Positions 2,507 to 34,809 of a DNA stretch of 34,954 nucleotides are shown here, one piece after another. The DNA lies in NCBI GenBank assembly GCA_947479085.1, contig CANJYB010000017.1:1-34954 (forward strand), given 5' to 3'. The position numbers and the translations under genes are program-made. Each line of letters opens with the position of its first letter. Positions within the stretch are counted from its first letter, which is position 1. The notes below the pieces were generated by a model. It searched no databases and was not told the origin of the DNA. It saw only the letters and a program-made list of their open reading frames with translations. The stretch is from Bacteroidota bacterium (GTDB lineage: Bacteria > Bacteroidota > Bacteroidia > 2-12-FULL-35-15).

Positions 2507-2758
2507 CAAGCATTTGCTACACAAGTGTAAGGAATTATGTCACCTATCCTTACATCCACGACATAAGTGTAAGCATCCGTGACGCAAGTGTAAGCATCCA
2601 CGACATAAAAGTAAGCTTCCGTGACGTAAAACTAAGCATCCATGACGTAAGTGTAAAGATTTACATCGCAAGTGTAAGCTTCCGCGACATAAATCTAAGC
2701 ATCCACGTCATAAAACTAAGCTTCCATGACGTAAGTGTAAGCTTCCATGACGCAAATG
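2507..2758. repeat. 21-bp tandem array no. 1
   Basis: Nine consecutive units keep an exact 21-bp register without a single indel, starting at 2570, 2591, 2612, 2633, 2654, 2675, 2696, 2717 and 2738. The unit is TAAGCWTCC then RYGAC then RYAARTG. About three more degenerate units precede it (from about 2507). Neighbouring units differ by several substitutions, so this is an old or selected array rather than a fresh slippage product. One frame of the plus strand has TAA in every unit, and no start codon or ribosome site suggests translation. It occupies the first part of the 637-bp gap between 2478 and 3116. Confidence 0.85.
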
Positions 2759-7120: not shown

Positions 7121-7138
7121 ATTTAATTCATTAATTTT

Positions 7139-7172
7139 GGCTTATGCAGAAAACCTGCATAAGCCATTATTT
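7139..7172 (+). terminator. Hairpin terminator after the beta-helix-like protein
   Basis: Perfect 11-bp stem GGCTTATGCAG / CTGCATAAGCC (7139-7149, 7155-7165) with loop AAAAC, then ATTATTTTAAT. The T-rich tail is interrupted, so efficiency is uncertain; read-through into the gene at 7187 is possible. Confidence 0.65.
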
Positions 7173-7186
7173 TAATATAAAAGAAC

Positions 7187-9560: not shown

Positions 9561-11345
9561 TTAAAAGTGAAATGCTAAACCTCCTGACACACCAAACACG
9601 GAAGGATAGGTCTTGATAGGAACGTTGCCATCCATTGAAGTGATAGCCTGCCTGTAAGTAGGTTCGATAAATACGGACAATCGTTGCCAGATACGATACT
9701 GAATACCAATACCCAGGGAAGCCCCGAAGTACGCCTTTTTTAAACCCTCAATAGAAGGGTTGTATTCAGTTCCTGTATTTAATTCGGTAATAGTTGTTTT
9801 TTGTGAAACAAGAAAGTGAGAAGTAAATCCGAGAGCAATAAATCCTGTAAACCTGTTTTTACCCAACGTATACTGGCATTCCAAAGGCACCGAGATGTAT
9901 TTCAATTTTTGTGTTCCTTCAATATCCCAGTTAAATTTTTCCTCTTCCGGACTCTGGACATGATGCTTCTTAAGGTCAACCTGCATTTCAACAGTTCCAT
10001 AAGAAGTAACCAACAGCTGGTTTGGAATCTCAGAAAACTCTTCGTCATCATCAATCTCAAATTGCTTGTGTGTTTCAAAAGAGTTGGACACTGCGGAATA
10101 AACAACTGCCGTGGATAGTGACCATTTTTTATTAATCATATAACCGAATTTCAAACCGGTTGAATAAGCGAAATGTTGCACTTCTTTCATCGAACTGGTT
10201 TTTGAATTCAAATCTATAAGGGTGGTTAATAGTTTGTCCGGAGAATAAAATCCTGCGAGATAGAATTTAAAATCCTTCATCGGAATCAATGCGTTCAAAG
10301 GGTTTTTCTCTGTTTCAGCAGAAGCAACAGATGCAGTATCATTAGCAGCTTTTGTTTCCGAAACACTATCAGAAGGTAGTGCAGTATTTTTCACCTCCTC
10401 TGTTTTACTTTCCGTTGCACTTGCAATAGGTGCAGAATTTAATACTTCCTCCTTTTTAATATCCTCTGCATTTTCAGCAGAATTGTTAGCAGCAGCGCTC
10501 AGAACATTATCTTCCGAAGAAACTGTGGTGCCCGAATTATTATTTTCCTTTTCTCCACTTTCTTTTACAGGGACTTCCGAAACAACAGTTTTATCAATAC
10601 TTTCATGTATAGCCCCAGGTGTTACTGAAAGTGGTTTCGCATTTTCAGTTTCCGTTTTGTTTTCAGTATCTCCTTTTTGAATCTCAGCAGATAAAACCAA
10701 AGCACCTTCAACAGTTGGTTTTAAAGCATCGTCTGCTTTTTTAACCACCTCCTCAGCTTCTGTTTTTTTATTTTCTTTTTTATTTGCTTCTACATTAAAA
10801 TCTTCTTCGTTTGGTTTAGTAACCGAGGCATTGTTAGCTGAACCAGCAGGCAAGCCATTATCAGCGCTTGAGGTCACAGGTGTTTCCGCTTTTGAATGTA
10901 ATAGGTTGTTTTCTGAATTTTGTATTTCTGCTTTTACTTTTTCAGAGATTTTGTTTGCCGGGGAAGAACTTAAATTTGCATTTTCATTAACTACAACAGA
11001 ATTATTTTTCTTCTGAGTTTTATTTTCGGGAGCAGTCGTTTCTGTTTCATTTGGCTCAACAACAGCAGTAATTGAAGAGGGGGTGTAAGACTTATTCGAA
11101 TTTTCAACAGGAATATCTATCTTTTTAAAATTCTGGTTTAAAATTAAAAATACTAAGGAGATAACTACAACCGAAACACCAATGGAAAAATTAAAAATCC
11201 TGCCGTATCTTTTTTGTAACTTAGCATATTGAGTTTTGTCGAGTTTACTGTCCACAGTTGACCAAACCGATTGTGACGGTTGCATTTCAGCAGGCTCTAT
11301 CACCTCCCTGAACAATTGGTCAATATCTTCGTTTAACTCTTTCAT
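9561..11345 (-). CDS. Envelope-spanning anti-sigma-like / beta-barrel protein
   Basis: 594 residues. Residues 1-45 are a cytoplasmic, acidic-helical head (MKELNEDIDQLFREVIEPAE, then SVWSTVDSKLD) like that of FecR-independent anti-sigma or porin-family regulators of Bacteroidota. About 48-70 is one membrane helix (IFNFSIGVSVVVISLVFLIL). About 75-345 is a long low-complexity linker rich in Glu, Lys, Ala, Ser, Asn and Thr. About 350-594 alternates hydrophobic strands and ends in a final strand with aromatic residue (GVSGGLAFHF), the look of an eight-strand outer-membrane barrel of the OMP_b-brl type. The start codon overlaps the stop of the sigma factor gene by one base (TAATG), so the two are co-translated; the protein probably restrains or senses for that sigma factor. 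This is inference from architecture and position. Confidence 0.75.
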   Translation of the reverse strand: MKELNEDIDQLFREVIEPAEMQPSQSVWSTVDSKLDKTQYAKLQKRYGRIFNFSIGVSVVVISLVFLILNQNFKKIDIPVENSNKSYTPSSITAVVEPNETETTAPENKTQKKNNSVVVNENANLSSSPANKISEKVKAEIQNSENNLLHSKAETPVTSSADNGLPAGSANNASVTKPNEEDFNVEANKKENKKTEAEEVVKKADDALKPTVEGALVLSAEIQKGDTENKTETENAKPLSVTPGAIHESIDKTVVSEVPVKESGEKENNNSGTTVSSEDNVLSAAANNSAENAEDIKKEEVLNSAPIASATESKTEEVKNTALPSDSVSETKAANDTASVASAETEKNPLNALIPMKDFKFYLAGFYSPDKLLTTLIDLNSKTSSMKEVQHFAYSTGLKFGYMINKKWSLSTAVVYSAVSNSFETHKQFEIDDDEEFSEIPNQLLVTSYGTVEMQVDLKKHHVQSPEEEKFNWDIEGTQKLKYISVPLECQYTLGKNRFTGFIALGFTSHFLVSQKTTITELNTGTEYNPSIEGLKKAYFGASLGIGIQYRIWQRLSVFIEPTYRQAITSMDGNVPIKTYPSVFGVSGGLAFHF

Positions 11346-11905
11346 TAAGCGTTAGCGGCTAATTCGTATTGTTTAGTATGTGCTACTCTGTTTTTTAAAA
11401 TCTTTCTTGCGTCAAAAAGATTTGATTTAGAAGTCCCTTCTGAAACACCTAATTTTTCGGCTATTTCCTTGTGTTTCATCCCCTCAAAAGTATAAAGGTT
11501 AAAAACCATCTGGTAAGCAGGAGGCAATTTCTGAATCAATTCCATTAATGCTTTTCCATTCATGTCTTCAAAAACATTTTCACCCGAGAAAATGCTATTG
11601 TGAAGGCTTTCGATATTGACAATAACTCCAAACGGATTCGCTTTTTTAAATTTCGCAATGGCCGTATTCACCATTATTTTTCTTACCCAACCATCGAATG
11701 AACCTTCGTTCTTAAACTGATCAATATTTTCAAACACTTTCACAAACCCTTCCATCAAGGTATCTTCCGCATCTTCCCTGCTCCTTGAATATCGAAAACA
11801 AACGGCCATCATTTTTGGTGAAAGCCTTTCATAGAGGATGTTTTGAGCACGTCTGTCGCCCTTGCCACACTTTCTAATCAACTCTATCTCATTCAAATAT
11901 TCCAT
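11345..11905 (-). CDS. ECF RNA polymerase sigma factor (sigma-70 family)
   Basis: 186 residues, the usual size for an ECF sigma factor. Region 2 spans about 20-95 (QNILYERLSPKMMAVCFRYS, the DAEDTLMEGFVKVFENI core helix that contacts the polymerase, and the GSFDGWVRKIMVNTAI promoter-melting part). Region 4 spans about 125-175 (LPPAYQMVFNLYTFEGMKHK, then EIAEKLGVSEGTSKSNLFDA as the helix-turn-helix for the -35 element). It has no region 1 or 3. The next gene overlaps its stop by one base and encodes a membrane protein with an anti-sigma-like head, so this is likely an envelope-stress or surface-sensing pair. A promoter -7 box lies about 80 bases upstream. Confidence 0.93.
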   Translation of the reverse strand: MEYLNEIELIRKCGKGDRRAQNILYERLSPKMMAVCFRYSRSREDAEDTLMEGFVKVFENIDQFKNEGSFDGWVRKIMVNTAIAKFKKANPFGVIVNIESLHNSIFSGENVFEDMNGKALMELIQKLPPAYQMVFNLYTFEGMKHKEIAEKLGVSEGTSKSNLFDARKILKNRVAHTKQYELAANA

Positions 11906-11982
11906 TTCCTTTTGTTCCGACAGTGACTTAAACAGATGTCCATTTTATTAAAATGGTTGGGTTTGTTCACAATTATTTTAAA

Positions 11983-11990
11983 CAAATGTA
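11983..11990 (-). promoter_or_regulatory. Possible -7 box for the sigma factor operon
   Basis: Minus strand 11990-11983 reads TACATTTG, matching TAnnTTTG, giving a leader of about 70 bases. The expected -33 TTTG is not clear (TTCTG is the nearest). The remaining 11906-12185 interval has no gene that can be supported. Confidence 0.4.
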
Positions 11991-12185
11991 AAAAAATAAT
12001 TTTAAACAGAACCTAATCATCGATAAAACTTAATATAACAGAGATTAAAAATTTAATAAATAGTACCCAACCTTTAGGATGAAATACTACTCTATGTATT
12101 AAATGCATAACCTATTTGTTTCAATCCTGAAAAATTATAAACAATTAAACACTTTTATTGAAAATTAATTCCAATACTTATATCT

Positions 12186-12389
12186 ATGCTTGATTTCATT
12201 GTAAACACTTATGCCGGGGGCATTTTATGGATTCTTCTTTCACTAATCATTATTCTGAAAATGAAAAGCAAATCAGAGTATAACCGATCTGATTTTTTTC
12301 TGCGCTTTCTCAATGTAGTTTGTGTATGCTTTTTTATGGTATTAGGTATCGGTATCATTTCCGTTAAACTCTATGGTACCTTTCATTAA
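12186..12389 (+). CDS. Small two-helix membrane protein
   Basis: 67 residues, not recognised. Two hydrophobic stretches are evident: GGILWILLSLIIIL (about 11-24) and FLNVVCVCFFMVLGIGIISV (about 41-60), separated by a short basic/polar loop KMKSKSEYNRSD, which suggests a hairpin in the inner membrane with the loop in the cytoplasm. The frame is bounded by a very strong terminator about 20 bases after its stop, which supports it as a real transcript. The start is the ATG at 12186; no Shine-Dalgarno is visible, which is normal for this phylum. Function unknown. Confidence 0.5.
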   Translation: MLDFIVNTYAGGILWILLSLIIILKMKSKSEYNRSDFFLRFLNVVCVCFFMVLGIGIISVKLYGTFH

Positions 12390-12410
12390 TTTTCTCTGAT
12401 TACTTTTCTT

Positions 12411-12454
12411 AAACAAAAAGCCCTGTACATATATATGTACAGGGCTTTTTGTTT
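12411..12454. terminator. Bidirectional terminator with a 20-bp perfect stem
   Basis: AAACAAAAAGCCCTGTACAT (12411-12430), loop ATAT, then the exact reverse complement (12435-12454). A run and T run flank the GC part on both sides, so it can end transcripts from the small membrane protein gene and from the convergent C10 peptidase gene. Confidence 0.92.
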
Positions 12455-12469
12455 ATTAATACTTTTTAA

Positions 12470-15154
12470 TTATTTCCTGATAACAACTTTCTTTTTAATT
12501 ATATTTCCGTTATTATTTATGGTCACAAAATACATTCCTGCATCTTTATCAGTTAAGTCTAATTGAACAATATCATTCGAAATGGCTTTCACCTGTTTGT
12601 TCATAACCATTTCCCCGATAACATTATAAACAGAAATGGTCATGTTTTCATCTTCCATTTTACCAAGACCAATATTAATAATTCCTTTTGAAGGGATTGG
12701 GAAAACAGAAATATTCCCATCAGAAGAAGAATTTGTTACTCCTGTAGTTATCGCAGGATTCCATTTGTAAATTCCATCTGCAGTATTAGAAACATTGAAA
12801 CTACCAGCCCACCCTGTATTCATATCAAAAAAGGCAACTGAAGTAAAACGAACAGAACCGCTATCCACGTTTTGATAAGTTGCTCCATCATCATAACTTA
12901 TAGAAGAACCGTTACTTGGAAAAGAAGCCACATCAATCCAGGTAGAACTTGTTCCGGGAACAAAAGCAAGAGTCGGTGTTTTTACTACATAACCTGTAGG
13001 AAGCAGTGTTTGCCATGTTGCACCACCATCTGTAGTTTTTTTCAATCCATAAGGAGAAGCCTGTTCAACTGCAATACCAACATTCGCATCTTTAAATTGC
13101 ACTGTAAATGAAGCAGCAATTCCTGTGGAAGCCACCGTCCAGTTTACACCCATATTTGTTGATTTATAGCATCTGCCAAGGTTAGTGGTAAACCAAATGG
13201 TATTACCAACTGCATCATAATAATTAACGATACCCGCTTCTCCTGTTTGGCAATTTGGAATATTAGCTCCCGGAACCTGTGTCCAGGTTGCTCCGCCATT
13301 TGAAGTGGTGTAAACAAAGAATTCTGTACCGGTAGTTGCTGTTGGGTCACCAACGCAAACACCATTATTAGCATCAAAAAAGTGAACAAAATCTGCCCAG
13401 CTATTGGTAAAGGTTGCAGAAGGCTGCGTGTTCCAGGTTGTACCTCCATCTGTAGTTTTAACAATGGCTCCTCCTGTTCCGGTAATAGGGAACATACAAG
13501 CGTAAGCGGTCATATAATCAAATGCAAAAATATTAGACACTCCGTAATTGGCAGAGTTAGTAAAAGTAATTGTACCCGGATTCCATGTGGTTCCACCATT
13601 GTTTGTTTTGGTGAACTCTCTGATGTAAGCTATTGGATTTGTTCCATCGTAAGCTTTTGCCCAAACCGTATTTGCATCCACAATGTCAATCTGGTCAATC
13701 CCTCTGGAAGGAGAAGCGAAACCTGAATTCTGCATGGTCCAAACTGTTGGTGCTCCACCCACTTTTATATAACGCTCTTTTGTTTTTATATCAGAACCAT
13801 TTGCATTTGTTGCTTTTAAAGAAATCAGGTGATAGCCATTGGTAGCAAATGTAACTCCGGTAGGATTCTGTGCCGTTGATGTAGCAGGTGTTCCGCCATC
13901 AAATGTCCATAACCATGAAGTAGGGTTGTTTAAAGATAAATCAGTAAAATCAACAGGAGCACCAACTGCCGGAATAAGCGTTCCACCGGAAGCGATACTA
14001 AAATTTGCAATAGGAATTAATGAATTAAAAGGTACGATACGGATTACCGCTGAACGATCGGAGCTGAAATTATTTCCATTTGGATTTAATAAAGTCAGGT
14101 TAAAATATCCGGTATTATAAGTGCCCCAACCCCAGTTCATGTGAAATAACCAGGTAGTATTGTTATAACCATCGCATGTCCACTCGTGTCCGGAACCTGC
14201 AGCTCCATTATTGTCACCAGCTAACATACATGGACGACCTGCATCAATTTCCTCTTTAATTAAATTCAACCACAATTGGTCGGTTGGAAAAGTAGCACGG
14301 CTTTTTACTTCGCATGATGGTTGGTAATTAAAATAATTGATGAATGCAGGAGGCACAGCCTGAGAATATGCTCCTGAACCTCCAGGTGCATAATCCATAT
14401 TTACAGATACGCCCGCATGGTACATTAAAGTAGCCACAGCATTATTTTGAGCTGTAGTACCTCCGGTAGCATAAGAGTTAATCATGTTTGCCCATTGATA
14501 AGTTGTTGCTCCGAAATTTGCAGTTTGTACTCCATAAGTAGCATGAGTATAGGAGTGAGAACCGTTACCGGTTGCAGGATAATTCCAGAATTTCATTATC
14601 TGTGACATAGTGGTAGCAACACATCCTGTAGGAGTTCCGGAAGGACACAAGTTATTATACGGTGACCCTTGGTCCCATTTAATACCTGTGGTATTGCTTC
14701 CCAACAATGGACCTATTATAGCATTTGTACTTTTGGTAAATAATTGTTGTCTTATCTTATTCCAGTCATTTTTGGTTTCAGTATTTGATAAATTGTTTGA
14801 AAGCACATCATTAATTTCCGATACATAAGAGTCGAAAAAAGCCTGTGCAACTGGAGGAATATTATTAGGGTCAAATATTCCTTCGTAAGAATAACCAAGA
14901 ACAGGTGTCACTGCATCGTCAGCAGCAACCATTACAAAACCACCTGCATTAAAATTGAAAGTGTAATAATAAGTGGTGTTTCCGGTTTTTCTTTCAAATT
15001 GATTGGCAATTGAAAAATCGGTGATGGTGTTTGGGGCATAATGTGTAAAATATTTTATTGCCACATCCTTTGCATCTGTCATTGTAACAGGGTTTGCAAA
15101 CATTATTGCACCGTAAAGTACAATAGCTAAAGTAAATAGTAATTTTTTTATCAT
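12470..15154 (-). CDS. Secreted C10-family cysteine peptidase, PKD, propeller, T9SS
   Basis: 894 residues. Signal peptide about 1-20 (KKLLFTLAIVLYGAIMFA). About 21-145 is a Spi/SpeB-type propeptide (AKDVAIKYFTHYAP, GGFVMVAADDAVTPVLGYS). About 146-378 is the streptopain (C10) catalytic domain: Cys178 in PTGCVATTMSQIM is the nucleophile, His323 in SGHEWTCDGY the base, and the WGWG motif (341-344) follows as in the family. About 380-468 is a PKD domain (SWLWTFDGGTPATSTAQNP). About 470-810 carries BNR/Ycf48-like repeats with TTDGGTTW motifs, predicting a beta-propeller. The last about 80 residues are a T9SS type A domain (VFPIPSKGIINI, YNVIGEMV, GMYFVTI, KKVVIRK). Expected to be secreted as a zymogen that degrades proteins outside the cell. 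Transcribed alone; terminators lie on both sides. Confidence 0.92.
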   Translation of the reverse strand: MIKKLLFTLAIVLYGAIMFANPVTMTDAKDVAIKYFTHYAPNTITDFSIANQFERKTGNTTYYYTFNFNAGGFVMVAADDAVTPVLGYSYEGIFDPNNIPPVAQAFFDSYVSEINDVLSNNLSNTETKNDWNKIRQQLFTKSTNAIIGPLLGSNTTGIKWDQGSPYNNLCPSGTPTGCVATTMSQIMKFWNYPATGNGSHSYTHATYGVQTANFGATTYQWANMINSYATGGTTAQNNAVATLMYHAGVSVNMDYAPGGSGAYSQAVPPAFINYFNYQPSCEVKSRATFPTDQLWLNLIKEEIDAGRPCMLAGDNNGAAGSGHEWTCDGYNNTTWLFHMNWGWGTYNTGYFNLTLLNPNGNNFSSDRSAVIRIVPFNSLIPIANFSIASGGTLIPAVGAPVDFTDLSLNNPTSWLWTFDGGTPATSTAQNPTGVTFATNGYHLISLKATNANGSDIKTKERYIKVGGAPTVWTMQNSGFASPSRGIDQIDIVDANTVWAKAYDGTNPIAYIREFTKTNNGGTTWNPGTITFTNSANYGVSNIFAFDYMTAYACMFPITGTGGAIVKTTDGGTTWNTQPSATFTNSWADFVHFFDANNGVCVGDPTATTGTEFFVYTTSNGGATWTQVPGANIPNCQTGEAGIVNYYDAVGNTIWFTTNLGRCYKSTNMGVNWTVASTGIAASFTVQFKDANVGIAVEQASPYGLKKTTDGGATWQTLLPTGYVVKTPTLAFVPGTSSTWIDVASFPSNGSSISYDDGATYQNVDSGSVRFTSVAFFDMNTGWAGSFNVSNTADGIYKWNPAITTGVTNSSSDGNISVFPIPSKGIINIGLGKMEDENMTISVYNVIGEMVMNKQVKAISNDIVQLDLTDKDAGMYFVTINNNGNIIKKKVVIRK

Positions 15155-19406: not shown

Positions 19407-19541
19407 TTATTTTGAAACAATTAGTTTAATATTTTTAGTAAACTCATTTGCCTTCATTTGGCAATAATAAATTCCTGCTGCAAATTTAGCAGAATTAAAG
19501 TTAATAGTATAATTTCCTTTTTCGCTTGGTTTTGTTCGTAA
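19407..19541 (-). pseudogene. Remnant of a T9SS type A sorting domain
   Basis: The minus-strand frame from 19541 to the stop at 19409-19407 gives 44 residues including GNYTINFNSAKFAAGIYYCQ and a KLIVSK end. This is the last half of a type A sorting domain: two strands, the G-I-Y-Y signature and the basic-hydrophobic tail. No start codon, signal peptide or YPNP motif precedes it; in the same frame there is a TAA just upstream, and shifting by one base reads GDINYEQ, which would fit the preceding strand, so a frameshift is likely. Further upstream the sequence passes into the 21-bp array instead of a gene body. The neighbouring BNR-repeat gene starts 4 bases after it, suggesting a former two-gene transcript whose first gene was lost. 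Confidence 0.7.
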
Positions 19542-19563
19542 TTAATATCTCCCAAAACGTAAA

Positions 19564-19836
19564 ACCTCTTTTTCGTTCCGTAAAGCCTTTTTATTACAAA
19601 CAAAGACCTTTTCCTTTGAAACAAAGACCTTTTTCTTATACCGAAAGACCTTTTCTTATTAAAAAGAGACCTTTGTTTCATACCGAAAGACCTTTTTATT
19701 ACAAACAAAGACCTTTCTTTCATACCGAAAGACCTTTTTGTTATAAACAAAGACCTTTCTTTCATACCGAAAGACCTTTTTGTTATTAACAAAGACCTTT
19801 CTTTCATACCGAAAGACCTTTCTGTTACAAACAAAA
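19564..19836. repeat. 21-bp tandem array no. 2, with 42-bp higher order
   Basis: The core ACCT (GCCT in unit 2) recurs at 19564, 19585, 19606, 19627, 19648, 19669, 19690, 19711, 19732, 19753, 19774, 19795 and 19816: thirteen units in strict 21-bp register with no indel. In the second half two unit types alternate, one ending CTTTCATACC and one ending TTTGTTATAAA or similar, so the region also repeats at 42 bp. The array begins about 20 bases from the T9SS remnant. Because 21 is a multiple of three and units mostly lack stops, several frames are open, but none has a gene-like start. Confidence 0.88.
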
Positions 19837-20221
19837 CGTTTTGTTTGTGATAAAAAGGCAAAACGAAGGTTTTTCAATGTTTATAGAGGTTTGCGATGCA
19901 CAAACGGAGGTTTAGAACCAATTCAAGGAACTTTCCCTTCTTATTTAAGGAATAGGGCAAAACACATGTTTTGATGCATTAGCTTGTTGGGGAATGGACC
20001 AAAACAAGTGTTTTGGCCTTATCTGAAAACAAGATTTGCGTAAAACAGGATTACTAATAGAACGATGGTTCTTTGATTTTTAACCTTAAAGCTAAACCAG
20101 TCCATACCATAATCAATACCTCGCCCCCGAAAAATTGGTTGCTACTAACCACTAATCGTATTTTTTTAAAATCCAACCGTTTTCTTACCTATTAATATTA
20201 CTTTTAGGCAAAATTTTATTT
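19837..20221. other. Gap with decayed array and no gene
   Basis: From 19837 to about 19950 the array continues in decayed form: AGG cores at 19867, 19887, 19908, 19926 and 19948, with spacing 18-22 bp. Around 19967-20050 there are loosely similar AAAACA/GTTTTG stretches. From 20051 to 20221 nothing beyond the AT-rich leader of the CotH gene is seen; TACTTTTA at 20199-20206 is a poor match to a -7 box. Confidence 0.5.
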
Positions 20222-22291
20222 ATGAAAAGAATATTCTTAACCTTTAATTTACTTTGGGCAGTTGTTATTCATGCGCAAACCTTTACAAGCACTGCGGTTA
20301 CCGCCATTCCCGATGCCGGACCCATGGTTACCATTCCCATTACCGTTTCGGGGTTATTGCCTACCACTATAGATACCATCTTTGGGCTGGAAACAGTTTG
20401 TTTTGATATTACCCATACCTATACTGCCGATTTGCACATCTGGCTTCAATCTCCTGACGGAACCATTGTAGCCTTGTCGGAAGCCAACGGGGGCGGAGGA
20501 GATAACTTTACAGGTACCTGCCTTAACGAATGGGCTGCCACTTCCATAGTGCTCGGAAGCGCTCCTTTTACGGGAACGTATCGCCCGCAGGGGTTTATAG
20601 GTGCTATTAATAACGGACAGGTGGGAAACGGTACCTGGAATTTTCTGATACAGGACCAATGGGGAGCGGACACCGGGTTTGTAAACAGCTGGAGCATTAC
20701 CTTTGGCAATGCCCCTGCTCATCCGTTTTTGTTTACTTCCAGCAATTTGCCCATTGTTACTCTTAACACCTTTAACCAAAACATTGTGGATTCGCCAAAC
20801 ATATTGGCACAAATGGGTATTATTGATAACGGACCGGGCAACCGGAATCATGTTACCGATTCCTTAAATTGTTTTAATAATAAAATACTGATACAGGTGC
20901 GGGGCAGCAGTTCGCAATCCTTTCCGCAAAAATCGTATAGTGTTACCACACTTACTACTGCCGGAGCCAATAATGATACTATACTCATGGGTATGCCTGC
21001 CGAACACGACTGGATATTATATGCACCCTATGATGATAAAACCTGTATGCGGAATGTGCTTGCTTATGATATTGCTAACCAAACGGGGCATTATGCTTCG
21101 CGCACCCGCTTTTGCGAACTGGTATTGAACGGGCAGTACGAGGGCATATATGTAATGATGGAAAAAGTGAAACGCGACAGCAACCGGGTGTCGGTTAATA
21201 AACTGGTGCCTACTGCTACCAGTGGTGACGACTTAACCGGTGGATATATTTTTAAGATTGACAGAGATGATGGGGCAGGAAGTTACTGGACTTCCAATTT
21301 TTTTTCAAACACTGGTATCAATATCAACTTTGTATATGTTTATCCTAAATATACGGCCATGCTTCCTATTCAAAAAACCTATCTTCAAAGTTATGTTGAT
21401 TCGTTTGAGCTGGCTCTGAACGGTCCCAATTTCGCTGACCCGGTGGTGGGATACCGCAGATACATTGGAGTAAGTTCGTTTATTGATTATTTTCTGTTGA
21501 ACGAAGTAAGTAAAAATGTGGATGGATACCGGTTGAGCACATTTTTTCATAAAGAGAAAAGAAGTAAAGGCGGACAGATAAAAGCAGGCCCGGCATGGGA
21601 CTATAACCTTGCCTGGTGGAATGCAGATTATTGCGGAGGCGATTCGGATACCGGCTGGGTGTACCAGCAAAATAATATTTGCGGAGGTGGTTATCAAAGT
21701 CCGTTTTGGTGGGATAAGTTTCTGCTCGACCAAAGTTATACCTATGAGTTAAAATGCCGGTGGATAGAACTGCGTCAGAATATATTAAGTGTAAACAGGA
21801 TAAATACGTATTGCGATTCGCTGGCACTTTACCTGGATGAAGCACAGCAAAGGCACTTTACGGTATGGCCAATTATCGGAGCCTATACATGGCCCAACCC
21901 AAGCCCAATACCTACCAGCTATGCAGGAGAAATAACCGCCATGAAAACATGGATACTGAACCGGATAACATGGATGGATGCTCATTTGCCGGGTACCTGT
22001 AATACAGCAATAACCGAAAACAACCTTACTGCGCAATCTGTTTTTATATATCCCAATCCGTTTGCAAACAATTTCCGTTTGAATTTTTACCTTCCTCACG
22101 TGGATATTTTGAAAATAGAAATAACGGATGTATTGGGCAAAACAATTAAAACAATGGAACAAAAGGAATATCATGAAGGAGAAAATAATATGGAAATAAA
22201 CATAGGAGATGACATTAGTACCGGGATGTATTTATTAAAAATCAGTTCGCCTTCAGGTACTGCAGTAATGAAAATAGCAAAGACAGAATAG
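20222..22291 (+). CDS. P-domain / CotH-kinase-like protein with T9SS domain (copy 1)
   Basis: 689 residues. Signal peptide about 1-18 (KRIFLTFNLLWAVVIHAQ). About 25-160 is a proprotein convertase P-domain (CFDITHTYTADLHIWLQSPDG, GNGTWNFLIQDQWGADTG, WSITFG). About 175-580 is a CotH kinase-like domain: RGSSSQSFPQKSY, PAEHDWILYAPYDDKT, LNGQYEGIYVMMEKVKRD, GGYIFKID (340-347), FIDYFLLNEVSKNVDGYR with Asp434, and AWDYNLAW with Asp460. Asp434 and Asp460 correspond by order and spacing to the catalytic and metal-binding aspartates known from spore-coat CotH; this mapping is inference. The last about 75 residues are a T9SS type A domain (IYPNPFANNF, TDVLGKTIK, GMYLLKI). Likely a surface kinase-fold protein; substrate unknown. 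Followed by a close paralogue. Confidence 0.88.
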   Translation: MKRIFLTFNLLWAVVIHAQTFTSTAVTAIPDAGPMVTIPITVSGLLPTTIDTIFGLETVCFDITHTYTADLHIWLQSPDGTIVALSEANGGGGDNFTGTCLNEWAATSIVLGSAPFTGTYRPQGFIGAINNGQVGNGTWNFLIQDQWGADTGFVNSWSITFGNAPAHPFLFTSSNLPIVTLNTFNQNIVDSPNILAQMGIIDNGPGNRNHVTDSLNCFNNKILIQVRGSSSQSFPQKSYSVTTLTTAGANNDTILMGMPAEHDWILYAPYDDKTCMRNVLAYDIANQTGHYASRTRFCELVLNGQYEGIYVMMEKVKRDSNRVSVNKLVPTATSGDDLTGGYIFKIDRDDGAGSYWTSNFFSNTGININFVYVYPKYTAMLPIQKTYLQSYVDSFELALNGPNFADPVVGYRRYIGVSSFIDYFLLNEVSKNVDGYRLSTFFHKEKRSKGGQIKAGPAWDYNLAWWNADYCGGDSDTGWVYQQNNICGGGYQSPFWWDKFLLDQSYTYELKCRWIELRQNILSVNRINTYCDSLALYLDEAQQRHFTVWPIIGAYTWPNPSPIPTSYAGEITAMKTWILNRITWMDAHLPGTCNTAITENNLTAQSVFIYPNPFANNFRLNFYLPHVDILKIEITDVLGKTIKTMEQKEYHEGENNMEINIGDDISTGMYLLKISSPSGTAVMKIAKTE

Positions 22292-22329
22292 CAAAATTAT
22301 TGCACATAACAACTTTCTGTCTATATATC

Positions 22330-22360
22330 TTTGTGTGTTAATAAATTGTTTATATATTTG
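22330..22360 (+). promoter_or_regulatory. Bacteroidota-type promoter of the second CotH gene
   Basis: TTTG at 22330-22333 and TATATTTG at 22353-22360 with a 19-bp spacer match the -33 TTTG / -7 TAnnTTTG consensus closely. The start of transcription would be near 22367, giving a leader of about 27 bases before the ATG at 22394. The second CotH gene therefore seems to have its own promoter despite following the first by about 100 bases. Confidence 0.65.
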
Positions 22361-22393
22361 CACAATTGACATTAAATAAAATACTTTAAATTT

Positions 22394-25300
22394 ATGAAGA
22401 AAAAGCTACTAACTACTTTTTGCCTCTTATTAACAGGACTTTTAAGTGCACAAACTTTTACCAATTCGGTTGGAGGTGCCATTACTGATAATAATGTGTA
22501 TACCAATTTTACAATAACGGTAAGCGGATTACCTACCCAACTTAATACAAGTACGTTCGGGCTGGAATGGGTAAATATAAATATTGTACATCCCAATGTT
22601 GGCGATTTGCGAATAAAATTAACTGCGCCCAATGGAAATGTTTTTTACCTCACCTCTTTTAACGGAGGTACCGGGGATAACTACACCAATACTACCTTCA
22701 GCGATACTGCTTCGGTTAATATCAGTGCAGGAGTGGCCCCGTTTAATGGTGTGTACCATCCATTAGACCCTCTTGCAAATTTTAATAACACCATGAACCC
22801 GAATGGAACCTGGACATTGCAGGTGAGGGATGCTACCACCGGAAACATTGGTAGCTTAACCAACTGGAGTCTGCATTTTGGCAGCCAACCGGCCGGAGGA
22901 TTAACATTTACAAGCAGCAATTTACCCATTGTAGTAATTAACACAGGAGGAGTAACTATACCTGATGAACCAAAAATAAGAGCATGGATGGGAATTATCT
23001 ATAACGGGCCAGGGGTAAGAAACTATATGAATAATCCCTTTAATAATTACAGAGATAGTATCGGAATAGAAACCAGAGGCTCAAGTTCTGCTGGATTTCC
23101 TCAAAAACAATATGGAATAGAAACACGAAATAATGCCGGTCTTCCGCTCGATACTACCGTGCTTGGCATGCCTGCCGAACACGACTGGGTGCTGTACGCC
23201 CCTTACGATGACAAAACCTGTATAAGAAATGTACTTACTTATGACATTGCAAATAAAACAGGACATTATGCATCGCGTACCAAGTTATGCGAAGTAGTGC
23301 TAAATGGTCAGTACCAGGGAATATACGTATGGATGGAGAAAGTGAAAAGAGATAGCAACCGATGTGATGTTGCCAAACTGGATTCGAATGATGTGGCTGG
23401 AGATTCCCTGACAGGAGGTTATATTATTAAGGTGGATAAGTTAACCGGAAACGGAGGAGATGGCTGGTATTCCAATTATCTATCCCCAGTAAGCAATCAT
23501 ACGATTTATTTCCAATATCACTATCCTTCCGAACTTGATATTCTTCCTGCACAGAAAACATATCTCCAGAATTATGTGGACAGTTTTGAAACAGCTTTGA
23601 ATGGCCCTAACTTCCAGGATCCTGTTAATGGATTCCGGAAGTATGCAAGTCAGGGTTCGTTTATTGACTATTTTCTGTTAAATGAAATAAGTAAAAATGT
23701 GGATGGATATAGGTTAAGCTCTTATCTGCATAAAGATAAATACAGTAAGGGAGGCAAACTAAAGGCTGGTCCTGCCTGGGATTTTAACCTGGCCTGGTGG
23801 AATGCTAATTATTGCAATGGAAATGTTACCACAGGATGGGAGTATAATTTCAATAGTGTGTGCTCTTCGGATGGATTTCAAAATCCTTTTTGGTGGTCAA
23901 AGTTATTACAGGATACCATGTATGTAAAAGCATTGAGATGCAGATGGAATGAATTAAGACAAACCACATTAAGTATTACCACATTGAATAACTATATCGA
24001 TTCGCTTGCTGCTTATTTGCAGGAAGCACAGGTAAGACACTTTACCAAATGGCCGATAATCGGGGTGTATACCTGGCCTAATCCAACTCCAATTCCAACC
24101 TCTTACGCAGGCGAAATAACTGCATTAAAGTCGTGGATTCAGTCAAGGGTAACATGGATGGATGCTAATCTTCCGGGAACCTGCGTTCCTTCCATAGCCG
24201 ATTTTTATTCCAATAACCTAGTGGTTTGTGCGGGAGACTCTATTAAATTTCATGATAATAGTTCACTGTATCCTACTTCCTGGTCGTGGAGTTTTCCGGG
24301 AGGTTCCCCTTCTTCATCCACCTTACAAAATCCAAAAATATTGTATCCTACAGCAGGAACCTATAACGTAACCTTAACTGCCACAAATATTGCAGGTAGC
24401 GGAGCACCCGTAACTTTTACAAGTTATATTACAGTCAACCCTTTGCCAGTAGTTACTGCGCCTGCCAATGTAAATGCATGTGTAGGAAGCCCTGTTGCTG
24501 CATCTTCGTTTACAAGTTCTGTAATTGGAACAACCTTTCAATGGACCAACTCTGATACTACTATTGGTTTGGCAACGAGTGGGACTGGAGATTTCTCTTC
24601 TTTTAATGCCATTAATACAACCGGAACACCTGTAAGTTCCACCGTAACAGTTACTCCAACTGCTAATGGCTGTTTAGGAAACCCAATAACTTATACCATT
24701 ACTGTAAATCCATTGCCTTCTGTTTCTGTAGACTCAACAACTATTTGTGAGGGAACAACTGCTTCATTAACTGCTAATGGAGGTACCAGTTATACCTGGA
24801 GTGCGGGAGCAACTCCAACAGGAGTAAATACTGCTGATGTTTCACCTTTAACTACCACTACATATACAGTAACAGGAACCACTGCAGGATGTTCAACTAC
24901 TGCTGTTTCCACCATCAATGTACAAAGCGCTATTAATGTGACTGTAAATTCACCAACTATTTGCAGCGGACAAACTACAGGGCTAACTGCAGGCGGAGCT
25001 ACTTCGTTTTCATGGTCGGCAGGAGCAACTACAACCGGAACAAATACAGCTGATGTTTCACCATCTGTAACAACAACATATACTGTTACCGGAACTGATG
25101 CAGCCTGCACTGCTACTGCTGCTGCAACTGTTACAGTTGATCCGGCCGTTTCTGTTTCCATTAATTCCCCGTCCATCTGCACAGGGGAAACAGCAAACCT
25201 TGTTGCCAATGGTGCAACTTCATATACATGGTCCTCAGGAGTGAATATAACTGGTAACAATTCCGCTGATGTATCACCAACCATAACCACTACCTATACT

Positions 25301-26287
25301 GTAACCGGTACCGCAGGAACCTGTTCCGACTCGGCTTTTGCAACCGTAACAGTTGTGCCATCTCTTACTGTTATCGTAAATTCTGTAACCATTTGTGAAG
25401 GAAATACTGCTAACCTGACAGCTAATGGTGCAAATGTTTATATCTGGAGTGCCGGAGCCACAAGCGTTGGTGTAAATACTGCTGATGCTAATCCTATAAC
25501 GACATCTACTTATACCGTAACTGGTAGTTCAGGAAACTGTTCTGCTACTGCTGTATCTACCGTAACTGTTTTACCTCCTCTTACCGTTTCAGTAAATTCG
25601 GTAACCATCTGTGCAGGAGATACTGCAAACTTAGCAGCTAACGGTGCAACGGCCTATACCTGGAGTGCAGGAGCAACCAGTGTGGGAGCAAATACTGCTG
25701 ATGCTACTCCTCTAGCTACATCTACTTATACGGTAACAGGTAGTTCAGGTACTTGTACCGGAACAGCTTTATCTACCGTAACAGTAGATACCATTCCTGC
25801 TATCCCAACTATTTCAACTGCTGGCAATGTGTTGATTTCAAGTTCAACCACCGGAAACCAATGGTATTTTAACGGTGCTATTATTCTTGGGGCAAATAGC
25901 CAATATTATACAGCCTTTGCAAATGGAACTTACACCGTTATTGTAAGCAACGGCAACTGTTCTTCTGCTGAATCAAACCCTGAACTTTATTATTCTGTAG
26001 GAATAGCAAGTACTTCCGGCTCGGATAATACGGTGAGCATTTATCCTAATCCATTCTCTGATAATTTTTCATTGTCTTTTTATTTAAAAGATGCAGAGCA
26101 AATTAAAATAGAAGTAACTGATGTTTTGGGCAGAAACATTAAGACTCTGGAAGAAAGAGAATTTGCTGAAGGAAATAATACATTGGAAATTAATTTTACC
26201 AGCGGGGAATTAAAAGAGGGGATTTATTTCCTTAAAATGATTTCAGCTAAGGGTACTATTGTAGAGAAGATTGTAAAAATGAAATAA
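22394..26287 (+). CDS. P-domain / CotH / PKD / Ig-repeat protein with T9SS domain (copy 2)
   Basis: 1297 residues. Signal peptide about 1-19 (KKKLLTTFCLLLTGLLSAQ). About 22-160 is a P-domain (VNINIVHPNVGDLRIKLTAP, NPNGTWTLQVRDATTGN). About 175-590 is a CotH kinase-like domain closely similar to the previous gene (PAEHDWVLYAPYDDKT, GGYIIKVDK at 341-349, Asp437 in KNVDGYR, Asp463 in AWDFNLAW). About 605-690 is a PKD domain (SWSWSFPGGSPSSSTLQNP). An unrelated Ig-like segment follows, then five Ig-like repeats of about 72 residues (nucleotides 24719-25792), one more Ig-like domain (GNQWYFNGAIILGANSQYY) and a T9SS type A domain (IYPNPFSDNFSL, TDVLGRNIK, GIYFLKM). The repeats probably act as a stalk that carries the N-terminal domains away from the surface. 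Ends at a terminator shared with a convergent gene. Confidence 0.9.
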   Translation: MKKKLLTTFCLLLTGLLSAQTFTNSVGGAITDNNVYTNFTITVSGLPTQLNTSTFGLEWVNINIVHPNVGDLRIKLTAPNGNVFYLTSFNGGTGDNYTNTTFSDTASVNISAGVAPFNGVYHPLDPLANFNNTMNPNGTWTLQVRDATTGNIGSLTNWSLHFGSQPAGGLTFTSSNLPIVVINTGGVTIPDEPKIRAWMGIIYNGPGVRNYMNNPFNNYRDSIGIETRGSSSAGFPQKQYGIETRNNAGLPLDTTVLGMPAEHDWVLYAPYDDKTCIRNVLTYDIANKTGHYASRTKLCEVVLNGQYQGIYVWMEKVKRDSNRCDVAKLDSNDVAGDSLTGGYIIKVDKLTGNGGDGWYSNYLSPVSNHTIYFQYHYPSELDILPAQKTYLQNYVDSFETALNGPNFQDPVNGFRKYASQGSFIDYFLLNEISKNVDGYRLSSYLHKDKYSKGGKLKAGPAWDFNLAWWNANYCNGNVTTGWEYNFNSVCSSDGFQNPFWWSKLLQDTMYVKALRCRWNELRQTTLSITTLNNYIDSLAAYLQEAQVRHFTKWPIIGVYTWPNPTPIPTSYAGEITALKSWIQSRVTWMDANLPGTCVPSIADFYSNNLVVCAGDSIKFHDNSSLYPTSWSWSFPGGSPSSSTLQNPKILYPTAGTYNVTLTATNIAGSGAPVTFTSYITVNPLPVVTAPANVNACVGSPVAASSFTSSVIGTTFQWTNSDTTIGLATSGTGDFSSFNAINTTGTPVSSTVTVTPTANGCLGNPITYTITVNPLPSVSVDSTTICEGTTASLTANGGTSYTWSAGATPTGVNTADVSPLTTTTYTVTGTTAGCSTTAVSTINVQSAINVTVNSPTICSGQTTGLTAGGATSFSWSAGATTTGTNTADVSPSVTTTYTVTGTDAACTATAAATVTVDPAVSVSINSPSICTGETANLVANGATSYTWSSGVNITGNNSADVSPTITTTYTVTGTAGTCSDSAFATVTVVPSLTVIVNSVTICEGNTANLTANGANVYIWSAGATSVGVNTADANPITTSTYTVTGSSGNCSATAVSTVTVLPPLTVSVNSVTICAGDTANLAANGATAYTWSAGATSVGANTADATPLATSTYTVTGSSGTCTGTALSTVTVDTIPAIPTISTAGNVLISSSTTGNQWYFNGAIILGANSQYYTAFANGTYTVIVSNGNCSSAESNPELYYSVGIASTSGSDNTVSIYPNPFSDNFSLSFYLKDAEQIKIEVTDVLGRNIKTLEEREFAEGNNTLEINFTSGELKEGIYFLKMISAKGTIVEKIVKMK
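24719..25792 (+). repeat. Five tandem Ig-like coding repeats
   Basis: Five units of about 215 bases (71-72 codons) inside the second CotH gene. Each contains TICxGxTAxLxANGATSYTW, SAGAT, NTADVSP and TTTYTVTG motifs and one conserved pair of Cys. Units 4 and 5 are the most alike (both have WSAGATSVG and STYTVTGSSG), suggesting that the array grew at its C-terminal end most recently. Confidence 0.85.
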
Positions 26288-26310
26288 CATTTATCAATGT
26301 AAATAAAAAA

Positions 26311-26337
26311 GGCGGTCTGGTTGACCGCCTTTTTTTA
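26311..26337. terminator. Bidirectional terminator
   Basis: GGCGGTC (26311-26317), loop TGGTT, GACCGCC (26323-26329), with an A run before and a T run after. It lies between the CotH gene and the convergent YwqK-like gene, whose stop codon is reached at the outer edge of the T run. Confidence 0.92.
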
Positions 26338-30534: not shown

Positions 30535-30870
30535 CCCCAAGGTTTTGTACCAAAGTTCGGGAAGTTTTGCCAAAAGTTCCGAAGATTTGACGAAACTTCC
30601 GAAGATTTCCGAAAAGTTCCGAAGATTTAACCAAACCTCGGATGTTTTGAACCATTCCTCGGATGTTTTGGTCAAAAGTTCCGAAGATTTTCAAAAAGTT
30701 CCGAAGATTTGCGAAAAGTTCGGAAGTTTGGACGGAAACATCCAGGTTTTGATTCAAAACCTTAGGGTTTCAATTTATATACTTAGGGTTTCCATTCATA
30801 CCTTCCGGGTTTTACTTAATATATACCAGGTTTTGATTAAATCCATTCATGTTTCGGATAAAAATTTTGG
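30535..30870. repeat. ~21-bp tandem array no. 3
   Basis: About sixteen degenerate units. The TTCCGAAGATTT-type cores begin at 30556, 30577, 30597, 30617, 30637, 30658, 30679, 30699 and 30719; a second block with CAGGTTTTGAT or TTAGGGTTT cores follows at 30741, 30762, 30783, 30803 and 30824 and decays by 30870. Spacing is 20-22 bp, so this array drifts, unlike the two strict ones. It fills most of the 525-bp gap between the M28 peptidase start and the stop of the next gene. 30447-30534 is an AT-rich leader; 30871-30971 holds nothing recognised. Confidence 0.8.
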
Positions 30871-32325: not shown

Positions 32326-34809
32326 ATGCAATACACCATCTCTACCATCGCCTCTGTTGTTAACGGAGAAATAATTGGAAGCAATTCGAAAAGTCCTGTA
32401 ATAAAAAATTTACTGATTGACAGCCGCAAACTTTCAAATGCAGAAACTTCCTTATTCTTTGCCATTAAAGGCGAACGACATGACGGACATGCTTACATCA
32501 TTGACCTATATGAAAACGGAAACAGGAATTTTGTAGTTTCTTCGTTACCAAAAAATACTTCTTCCTTTACCGATACCAATTTTATTTTAGTAAAAGACAC
32601 GCTCCTTGCTTTGCAGCAATTATGTGCCTATCACCGGAAACAATATAATATTCCTGTTATAGGAATAACAGGGAGCAACGGCAAAACCATTGTTAAAGAA
32701 TGGTTGTTTCAACTGATGCGGGAGGATAAAAACATTGTTCGCAGTCCAAAGAGTTTCAACTCTCAGGTGGGAGTTCCTTTATCTGTATGGCAAATGAGTG
32801 AGGAACATGATTTGGGAATATTTGAAGCCGGAATTTCAAAACCTTCGGAAATGAAAATGCTTGAAACCATTGTTCAGCCAACCATAGGATTGATAACAAA
32901 CATAGGGCAGGCGCACGATGAGAATTTTGAAAACCAGAAACAGAAAACAGGCGAAAAACTAAAACTGTTTTTAAAATCGGAAGTACTTATTTACTGCAAA
33001 GATTATGTACTTATACATGATGAGATTACAAATGATAAAGCTTTAAATGATTTAAAAACATTTACCTGGTCAAAAAGATTACGGGCCGATTTGCTTATTG
33101 GGAGAATTTCTAAAACCGACTCCGATTCGGAGATACAAGCGGTTTTTAAAAATAATTTCATCAGCATTTCCATTCCTTTTATTGATGAAGCAAGTATAGA
33201 AAATGCTATACATTGCTGGGCCATGATGCTTTACCTTGGTTACGAAAACACTGTTATAGCGGAGCGGATGCGTTATTTAAGTCCTATAGCAATGAGGCTG
33301 GAACTAAAAGAAGGAATAAATAACTGTTCTATTATTAATGATACTTATAATTCTGATTTAGGTTCCCTGGCCATTGCCCTTGATTTTTTAAACCAGCAAA
33401 AACAACATCCTAAAAAAACCATTATCCTTTCCGATATTTTACAAAGCGGGCAAAAGGATGAAACCCTTTACAGGGAAGTAGCTGAACTGATTCATAAAAA
33501 AGGAATATCAAGAATAATAGGAATAGGTGAAGGTATTTCGGGGCAGGCCAATCAATTTAATATTGAAAAAAACTTTTATAAATCCACTTCTGATTTTCTG
33601 CAACAGTTCAATAATTCTTTTTTTGAGGATGAAACTATTTTATTGAAAGGTGCCAGGATATTTGGTTTTGAAGCCATCAGTAAAGTAATACAGCAAAAAG
33701 CACACGAAACTGTTTTGGAAATTAACCTCAATTCCATTGTACATAATCTGAATTACTATCGCTCAAAAATAAAAGCCGAAACTAAAATTATGGCAATGGT
33801 AAAAGCGTTTTCTTACGGAAGCGGAAGTTTTGAAATAGCCAATATACTTCAGTTTCACAGGGTAGATTACCTTGCAGTAGCTTATGCTGATGAAGGAATA
33901 GAATTAAGAAAGGCAGGAATAACCGTTCCGATTATGGTAATGAACCCCGAAGAACAAAGTTATGACGCCATGATTCAGTATAATCTTGAACCGGAAATAT
34001 ATAGTTTCCGTGTATTAAGTTTGTTTGAAGATGCTGTTAAACGAAGCGTTCACAGTGGTTCTAAATCAGTTTCCATTCACATCAAACTCGATACTGGCAT
34101 GCACCGCTTAGGCTTTGATGAAACCGACCTGAACGAATTAATAGTAAAAATTAAAAACAATAAACACCTTAAGATAAAGTCAGTTTTCTCTCACCTTGCT
34201 GCAAGTGATGAACACGAGCATGATGATTTTACGTGGCAGCAGATAAAGAAATTTAATTCAATGAGTGCCTCCATCACTTCTCATTTTGATTACTCAATTC
34301 TTAAACATATTTTAAATTCTTCCGGCATTTCCCGGTTTCCAGATGCACAATTTGAAATGGTAAGACTCGGAATAGGATTGTATGGAATAGGTTCCGAAGC
34401 AACGGAACAACAGCAATTACAAAATGTGAGTACTTTAAAAACAAGCATTTCGCAGATTAAAAATATTCCTGCGAATGAAACCATTGGTTACAGTAGAAAA
34501 GGAGTTGCCTCCCGCGATATTCAGATTGCAACTGTCCCAATTGGTTATGCAGACGGACTAAGTCGTAAATTAAGTAACGGTGTCGGGAAAATGATGGTTA
34601 AGGGAAAACCTGCTCCCATCATTGGCAATGTATGTATGGATATGTGCATGATTGACATTACCGATATTAAAGCAAACGAAAGTGATGAGGTAATTATTTT
34701 CGGAGAAGATTATTCCATTTCGCAGGTGGCAAAAGATGTCGGAACTATTCCTTATGAAATATTAACCAATGTTTCGAGGAGAGTAAAGCGGGTGTATTAC
34801 CAGGAATAA
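32326..34809 (+). CDS. murF/alr: Bifunctional MurF ligase / alanine racemase
   Basis: 827 residues. Residues about 1-455 are UDP-MurNAc-tripeptide D-alanyl-D-Ala ligase: LIDSRKLSNAETSLFFAIKG at the N terminus, ATP-binding GITGSNGKT at 113-121 with Lys120, LGIFEAGISKPSEM, TNIGQAHDENF, and NDTYNSDLGSLAIALD. Residues about 465-827 are alanine racemase: LEINLNSIVHNL, PLP-lysine Lys493 in AMVKAFSYGSG, KLDTGMHRLGF, LGIGLYGIG, catalytic Tyr722 in TIGYSRKG, PIGYADGLSRKL and NVCMDMCMIDIT. The fusion joins supply of D-Ala with its addition as D-Ala-D-Ala to the peptidoglycan precursor; D-Ala-D-Ala ligase itself must lie elsewhere. This fused form is known from Bacteroidota. The substrate-site residues of both halves appear intact. 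Confidence 0.95.
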   Translation: MQYTISTIASVVNGEIIGSNSKSPVIKNLLIDSRKLSNAETSLFFAIKGERHDGHAYIIDLYENGNRNFVVSSLPKNTSSFTDTNFILVKDTLLALQQLCAYHRKQYNIPVIGITGSNGKTIVKEWLFQLMREDKNIVRSPKSFNSQVGVPLSVWQMSEEHDLGIFEAGISKPSEMKMLETIVQPTIGLITNIGQAHDENFENQKQKTGEKLKLFLKSEVLIYCKDYVLIHDEITNDKALNDLKTFTWSKRLRADLLIGRISKTDSDSEIQAVFKNNFISISIPFIDEASIENAIHCWAMMLYLGYENTVIAERMRYLSPIAMRLELKEGINNCSIINDTYNSDLGSLAIALDFLNQQKQHPKKTIILSDILQSGQKDETLYREVAELIHKKGISRIIGIGEGISGQANQFNIEKNFYKSTSDFLQQFNNSFFEDETILLKGARIFGFEAISKVIQQKAHETVLEINLNSIVHNLNYYRSKIKAETKIMAMVKAFSYGSGSFEIANILQFHRVDYLAVAYADEGIELRKAGITVPIMVMNPEEQSYDAMIQYNLEPEIYSFRVLSLFEDAVKRSVHSGSKSVSIHIKLDTGMHRLGFDETDLNELIVKIKNNKHLKIKSVFSHLAASDEHEHDDFTWQQIKKFNSMSASITSHFDYSILKHILNSSGISRFPDAQFEMVRLGIGLYGIGSEATEQQQLQNVSTLKTSISQIKNIPANETIGYSRKGVASRDIQIATVPIGYADGLSRKLSNGVGKMMVKGKPAPIIGNVCMDMCMIDITDIKANESDEVIIFGEDYSISQVAKDVGTIPYEILTNVSRRVKRVYYQE

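Follow-up and report, generated by a model that had tools for sequence, protein, structure and literature searches.

The analysis covered the opening 34,954 bases of contig 17 (CANJYB010000017.1) from a Bacteroidota bacterium, and this whole stretch is called the window here; the genome was 4.28 Mb in size and 99.4% complete. The window was found to contain two neighbouring genes encoding proteins with a CotH domain, named here CotH1 and CotH2. Judged from their sequences, both proteins belong to a separate, clearly bounded branch of the CotH family, the Ser type, in which a serine replaces the metal-binding asparagine (Asn171 of protein kinase A, PKA). We give about an even chance to the reading that they are exported, form part of a CotH branch of its own, and probably still depend on a nucleotide, with a changed handling of metal or phosphate.

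The initial annotation had described two tandem CotH-like genes in 20222-26287, and both open reading frames (ORFs) were found there on the forward strand, with a gap of 102 bp between them. The two proteins were 57% identical over residues 2-599; by this sequence comparison they are tandem paralogues, and a recent duplication is ruled out. The genome contained 11 CotH matches above the Pfam cut-off (PF08757), so the pair belongs to a larger set. The CotH domain was matched at residues 224-585 of CotH1 (E 2.3e-54, 185.5 bits) and 225-589 of CotH2 (E 9.2e-56, 190.1 bits), in both over the full profile (1-322) and against a cut-off of 23.8 bits, and these E values exclude chance. The Pfam P-domain family (P_proprotein) was matched at residues 59-161 of CotH1 (E 1.1e-9) and 60-162 of CotH2 (E 5.7e-14), and both models contained the furin P-domain fold. 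The sorting tail of the type IX secretion system (T9SS) was matched by Por_Secre_tail at residues 609-685 (E 1.5e-11) and 1216-1294 (E 2.8e-12), respectively, and TIGR04183 agreed in both proteins. The N-terminal P-domains and T9SS tails named in the initial annotation were therefore present in both.

Both proteins were predicted to adopt the fold of Bacillus CotH. The AlphaFold model of CotH1 was built from 58 aligned sequences and that of CotH2, covering residues 1-604, from 33, with predicted local distance difference test (pLDDT) scores of 90.5 and 86.5, respectively. The top matches of the CotH1 model were the B. cereus CotH structures 5jd9 and 5jda (Foldseek E 4.1e-15 and 5.7e-15), with Z 31.9 over 337 residues and a root-mean-square deviation of 3.0 to 5jd9 (337-339 residues across the two structures). 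The CotH2 model matched 5jd9 with Z 31.0 over 339 residues and a deviation of 3.2, and 5jda with Z 30.2. The next kinase folds for CotH1 were far below, at Z 11.6 for CtkA and Z 10.8 for HipA. The weak point was the search with single sequences: phmmer with CotH1 found 5jd9 in the PDB at E 0.17 only, and with the CotH protein of locus L014 (G000:C22) it found no chain at E 0.01. A profile of 16 rows reached E 1.3e-6, yet its catalytic segment scored -2.7 bits. Profiles and folds were therefore used for mapping; hmmsearch with a profile of ten own-genome proteins aligned 316 residues of 5jd9 (E 3.4e-22), and hhalign of the 58-row alignment against the aligned 5jd9 stretch gave a probability of 95.7 (E 9.4e-9).

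A review passage (PMC12189002) states that CotH retains the equivalents of PKA D166, N171 and D184 and that adenine is held by Tyr142 and Trp245 in B. cereus CotH, and an excerpt of PMC7821199 reports the D228Q and D251A variants of B. subtilis CotH to be inactive. In both profile alignments, Asp434 of CotH1 fell on the NFDG Asp of 5jd9 and Asp460 on the first Asp of WDYD. This Asp pair is 23 residues apart in 5jd9, the same as D228-D251 of B. subtilis, and Asp434/Asp437 and Asp460/Asp463 of CotH1/CotH2 are the equivalents of D228 and D251, respectively. The positions noted earlier were exact, with the first Asp in NVDGYR, the second in AWD and the GGYI motif at 340/341. Ser439 aligned with the Asn that follows the first Asp of 5jd9 at a distance of five residues and corresponds to PKA N171, and Ser442 of CotH2 fell in the same column, so the Asn equivalent is missing in both proteins. 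Trp459 aligned with the 5jd9 Trp preceding the second Asp, and its counterpart in CotH2 was Trp462; this 5jd9 Trp is chain residue 246 as printed, and the published numbering was taken as index minus one (Trp245). Numbered in this way, Tyr142 corresponds to the latter Tyr in IYY, whose column contained Phe344 in CotH1 and Ile345 in CotH2; at a distance of two residues, the same predicted strand carries the invariant Tyr342. The CotH core, which had been called apparently intact, was thus found to keep both Asp and the Trp but not the Asn, with Phe or Ile in the column of the stacking Tyr, and therefore kinase activity cannot be read from the sequence. The Asn was retained in all 13 new Legionella kinase families of a survey (PMC9758233), which by analogy suggests that it is rarely given up.

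The split of the family was examined in 166 CotH domains, comprising 119 from the window, its own genome, genus and class genomes and 80 named loci (identical ones counted once), 46 further domains from the own genome and 40 phylum-sample regions, and 5jd9. Both Asp columns contained Asp in 166 of 166 domains. In the Asn171 column, which defines the types, 130 domains had Ser, 35 had Asn and one had Asp; the 80 loci and the relatives were gathered by similarity to CotH1 or its alignment, so this ratio is no census. The Ser stood at the fifth position after the catalytic Asp without a gap in 130/130, the same spacing as PKA D166-N171. The distance from Asp to Asn in the Asn type was 5 in 11 domains, 8 in 23 and 9 in one, and the Asn match of 24 of the 35 therefore rests on a gapped alignment; in a comparison of the Ser-type and Asn-type profiles (probability 99.8, E 2.4e-29) the gap fell in the same loop. 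The Ser type contained Lys at 444 in 130/130 and Gly-Pro at 456-457 in 130/130, against 1/35 and 0/35 in the Asn type, and K317, R322, G340, Y342, P375, Q384, E428, K444 and G456 were each found in 129-130 Ser-type and 0-1 Asn-type sequences. Altogether sixteen columns including S439 were at least 97% fixed in the Ser type, with the same residue in less than 20% of the Asn type. An unrooted tree was built from 86 rows, made up of 50 Ser-type rows out of the 130 and the 36 remaining ones. A branch with a support of 100/100 set the Ser type apart, and this grouping recurred in 100% of 200 bootstrap trees.

The Ser-type profile was widely distributed. At E 0.001, PF08757 was matched in 144 of the 392 genomes sampled from the phylum (143 above the cut-off), and the Ser-type profile at E 1e-20 in 76 of the 392, a count in which up to four candidates were scored per genome, matches were made by profile and not by the Ser itself, and a few short pieces are included. 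In the genus it was matched in 26 of 36 genomes, with 55 matches and no internal stop among them, and full-length relatives of CotH1 ranged from 79% down to 56% identity there, with more distant ones besides. A Ser-type gene was also contained in the record of Hymenobacter sp. BT18 (L052). The invariance in 130 sequences together with this spread argues for a working site.

Export of both proteins was indicated by a hydrophobic N-terminal helix followed by Ala-Gln and by the sorting tails, and the proteins are probably T9SS type A cargo by these sequence features. The genome matched the PorU equivalog at 1340.9 bits against a cut-off of 420, and PorU alone among the components was taken to judge the presence of the T9SS; two of 14 control genomes matched, none above the cut-off. 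By a simple rule, a hydrophobic N-terminus was present in 127/130 proteins of the Ser type, 34/34 of the Asn type and 1/1 of the Asp type. The Asn-type CotH proteins of Bacteroidota, which in the own genome often carry LTD or Fn3-associated domains, keep the Asn and fall outside the Ser group; they are likewise exported as judged by their N-termini, with a T9SS tail match in 4 of 5 own-genome proteins, one of the four below the Pfam cut-off. The puzzle of a phosphate donor outside the cell, raised in the initial annotation, accordingly holds for both types, and because both look exported it is left unexplained by the change to Ser. The host had also been expected not to form spores, which stands as far as Spo0A serves as a proxy for sporulation: Spo0A_C had no match in the genome, and B. 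subtilis alone of the 14 controls matched. A role in the spore coat was rejected on this ground. No account of a CotH protein linked to the T9SS was found in the open-licence literature, outside which most subscription journals lie.

Compared with Bacillus CotH (5jd9/5jda, PF08757), the window proteins have in common the fold of about 340 residues, the catalytic Asp, the metal Asp and the adenine-stacking Trp. They differ in the Ser for the Asn171 equivalent, in the branch-specific Lys444, GGYI and GPxWD, in the signal peptide, P-domain and T9SS tail, and in a host without a Spo0A match. The Fam20 Golgi casein kinase (4kqa) likewise has a kinase fold and substrates among secreted proteins, and CotH2 matched it with Z 8.9 over 233 residues. 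Fam20 works in the eukaryotic Golgi lumen, into which ATP is imported, and in this it differs from the window proteins.

CotH2 was longer than CotH1 by further modules, for which a PKD domain and Ig-like repeats had been proposed. The PKD domain was matched by Pfam at residues 608-670 (E 7e-9), and five repeats of 72 residues were found with ICxG motifs at residues 784, 856, 928, 1000 and 1072; no Ig family of Pfam matched these repeats at E 0.01. Longer CotH2 copies were present in the genomes G004, G005 and G015 (1297, 1028 and 1938 amino acids, respectively).

In the reading that we favour, CotH1 and CotH2 would be carried by the Sec pathway to the periplasm and then by the T9SS across the outer membrane, where the sorting tail would be removed. 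The P-domain would form an N-terminal beta module, and the additional CotH2 repeats probably serve as a spacer or an adhesive stalk. The CotH domain probably remains able to bind a nucleotide and to pass on a group taken from it. Three residues are retained in the Ser type: the catalytic Asp, the DFG-like metal Asp and the Trp that stacks on adenine. With Ser for the second metal ligand and an invariant Lys, the site probably holds one metal ion, and this Lys, or another charged residue peculiar to the branch, may do some of the charge work instead. A surface or extracellular protein or glycan would serve as the target. The kept Asp pair and Trp and the fixed charges of the branch point to a nucleotide site that still works but handles metal differently.

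Several points weigh against this reading. Loss of the Asn ligand is a mark of pseudokinases, and ATP is scarce outside the cell. The putative beta3 Lys (columns 236/237) was missing in 13 of the 130 Ser-type sequences, including the own-genome proteins of L013 and L015, and the stacking-Tyr column contained I, L or V in 106 of the 130. The places of Ser439 and Lys444 are those given by the alignment. The branch leading to the Ser group is long (2.11), and the tree, built with the long branches included, drew a program warning that such branches meet there; either direction of change, from Asn to Ser or the reverse, would fit the unrooted tree.

The strongest rival is a pseudokinase, in which the CotH domain would bind a nucleotide or other ligand without transfer and serve as a structural or adhesive module of the surface; we consider this possible, with a clearly smaller share of our belief. 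The reason for its rank is integrin-linked kinase (ILK), a pseudokinase of a different kinase family, which has the same Ser at the Asn171 position and a single cation held by Asp184 alone, as described in a part of PMC4718504. The absence of the metal Asn across the whole branch, the export to a place without obvious ATP and the stalk-like repeats of CotH2 would all fit such a module, as would the lack of a widely shared neighbour gene: when 655 ORFs of the 80 loci were clustered, none except CotH occurred in more than 9 loci (the commonest in 9 loci with 11 ORFs). The catalytic and the metal Asp are, however, invariant in the whole set, and the many fixed charged residues look like a rebuilt site rather than a dead one. 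The Ser-type branch also keeps the catalytic-loop HRD Asp that ILK lacks. In a review of bacterial pseudokinase families, the name CotH does not occur (PMC12599244).

The proposal of the initial annotation, that the pair are ordinary CotH Ser/Thr kinases which phosphorylate extracellular proteins with ATP, agrees with the homology, the fold and the two retained Asp. We regard it as improbable, since the Asn171 equivalent is Ser, the stacking-Tyr column is mostly non-aromatic and a deep split separates the Ser type from the group of rows to which B. cereus CotH belongs. That the genes are functionless copies, decaying or there by chance, is very hard to credit: the 10 of 36 genus genomes without a Ser-type match at E 1e-20 and the internal stop in two phylum-sample copies are outweighed by the full-length relatives, the stop-free genus matches, the invariant active-site columns and the presence of CotH near the MORN/CorA genes in 8 of 16 regions of relatives.

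A bolder version of the favoured reading, which we rate as unlikely but worth stating, is that the Ser type forms a separate enzyme class on the CotH fold. Its members would be extracytoplasmic transferases that use one metal ion and have recruited a lysine; their donor might not be ATP, or the group transferred might be a different one, and they would represent an unrecognised layer of surface modification in Bacteroidota. Few protein kinases of the atypical kind occur in bacteria, and CotH is among them; many genomes of Bacteroidota have it, and the Ser type differs in its catalytic loop. An active Ser type would open up the study of extracellular modification in Bacteroidota as well as the donor question, and an inactive one would be a large bacterial pseudokinase branch.

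Features of the CotH locus and of the arrays discussed below (positions in the window unless a region is named)
Feature	Position	Strand	Basis
CotH1 gene	20222..22291	+	ORF, 689 amino acids
CotH1 putative Sec signal peptide, residues 1-18, HA then Gln19	20222..20275	+	Sequence, cleavage by eye; model helix 2-15
CotH1 P-domain, residues 19-164	20276..20713	+	PF01483; furin P-domain Z 13.9, 116 residues
CotH1 CotH domain, residues 224-585	20891..21976	+	PF08757; Z 31.9 to 5jd9
CotH1 Phe344, aligned with adenine-stacking Tyr142 of B. cereus CotH	21251..21253	+	Alignment; Tyr142 role from a passage of PMC12189002
CotH1 Asp434, catalytic-base Asp (PKA D166; B. subtilis CotH D228)	21521..21523	+	Alignments; Asp in 166/166
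CotH1 Ser439, replacing metal-binding Asn (PKA N171)	21536..21538	+	Alignments
CotH1 Lys444, invariant in Ser type	21551..21553	+	130/130 Ser type, 1/35 Asn type
CotH1 Trp459 (B. cereus Trp245, adenine stacking) and Asp460 (PKA D184; B. subtilis D251)	21596..21601	+	Alignments
CotH1 T9SS type A C-terminal sorting domain	22046..22276	+	PF18962, TIGR04183; Z 10.6 to NucA sorting domain 8glk_D
CotH2 gene	22394..26287	+	ORF, 1297 amino acids
CotH2 putative Sec signal peptide, residues 1-19, SA then Gln20	22394..22450	+	Sequence, cleavage by eye; model helix 2-16
CotH2 P-domain, residues 20-165	22451..22888	+	Pfam; furin P-domain Z 13.8, 117 residues
CotH2 CotH domain, residues 225-589	23066..24160	+	PF08757; Z 31.0 to 5jd9
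CotH2 Asp437, catalytic-base Asp	23702..23704	+	Alignment
CotH2 Ser442, replacing metal-binding Asn	23717..23719	+	Alignment
CotH2 Lys447, Ser-type lysine	23732..23734	+	Alignment
CotH2 Trp462 and Asp463	23777..23782	+	Alignment
CotH2 PKD domain, residues 606-681	24209..24436	+	PF00801, PF18911
CotH2 five 72-residue repeats, limits approximate	24716..25813	+	ICxG spacing 72; 216-bp tandem repeat 25343-25793
CotH2 T9SS type A sorting domain	26039..26275	+	Pfam, TIGR04183
Terminator-like hairpin between CotH2 and convergent MORN-repeat gene	26305..26337	.	Read by eye
Arrays of about 21 bp, window	2553-2756, 19582-19835, 30552-30760		Tandem-repeat scan
Arrays of about 21 bp, own genome	L012 5756-5970, L015 6248-6480, L016 9983-10192		
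Arrays of about 21 bp, own genome	L017 12769-13052, L019 5478-5768, L020 12029-12264		
Arrays of about 21 bp, genus regions	L131, L132, L138, L142		

The 11 CotH proteins of the own genome comprised five of the Ser type, five of the Asn type and one partial protein without a type. A T9SS tail was found at E 0.01 in 9 of the 11, two of these matches being below the Pfam cut-off and one of the two cut by a contig end. The N-terminal P-domain was present in 75 of the 119 domains by a home-made profile, and the architecture of CotH1 is therefore common among its kin; the fusion of CotH to a T9SS tail or a P-domain is not peculiar to this pair. When presence of the P-domain was mapped on a tree of 118 rows, it required 9 changes, of which at least 6 were forced by well-supported branches. 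The second tandem gene of the genome G003 (L135 9079-11130, reverse strand) carries a P-domain but groups with the own-genome protein of L012 (100*), from which it is absent, and the P-domain therefore moves between close CotH relatives.

Tandem CotH genes on the same strand were found in 7 of the 16 regions of relatives, which were chosen partly for tandem matches. In the eight regions with a similar neighbourhood, CotH lay near a CorA gene with or without a MORN gene, as in the window. The conserved context of MORN, CorA, TP-methylase, M28 and TK genes was rejected as a set of partners; it looks like housekeeping and was not found in L131 and L132, the regions of the closest relatives of the CotH pair, which had other neighbours. 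No Rfam match at the gathering threshold and no tRNA were found in the window. The CotH region of 20222-22291 also matched PHROG 6813, a phage family of unknown function (E 5.5e-33), so some phages seem to carry CotH-like domains. In the locus L014, a DUF4956 gene, a VTC gene (polyphosphate polymerase-like) and an Asn-type CotH gene stood in a row at 4148-7359, followed by Wzy and MBOAT genes. The same cluster contained, at 11330-13921 on the forward strand, a protein of 864 amino acids whose CotH match was weak and covered part of the profile (37.9 bits, positions 2-262). For NELoc-2 of C. perfringens, an excerpt of PMC2879425 likewise describes VTC genes close to CotH.

Tandem arrays 183-309 bp long were found between genes; they repeat about every 21 bp (20-22 or 42), with a unit that differed from place to place; 21 bp corresponds to two helical turns. 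In 165,954 bases of the own genome, all nine arrays of at least 100 bp (periods 10-130) were of this kind and none overlapped an ORF of at least 150 amino acids. All five arrays in 13 genus regions (213,394 bases) were also of this kind, and none was found in the 254,024 bases of 40 CotH-surrounding regions from other phylum genomes. In Bacillus, CotH phosphorylates SKR regions, and the ORF at 19454-19861 (reverse strand), a Lys/Arg/Ser-rich repeat resembling them, was considered as a CotG-like substrate. It was rejected, as it sits on one of these arrays, where a period of 21, being a multiple of 3, keeps any stop-free array open to translation without selection for a protein. Most frames of the array at 2553-2756 contained stops, that at 30552-30760 had a period of 20, and in L131 and L132 the arrays close to the CotH genes had other units and other places, all of which speak against such a substrate.

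Elsewhere in the window, the gene at 12470-15154 (reverse strand) encoded a C10 peptidase with a Spi inhibitor propeptide, a PKD domain and a T9SS tail, and the gene at 32326-34809 (forward strand) encoded one protein joining Mur ligase and alanine racemase domains.

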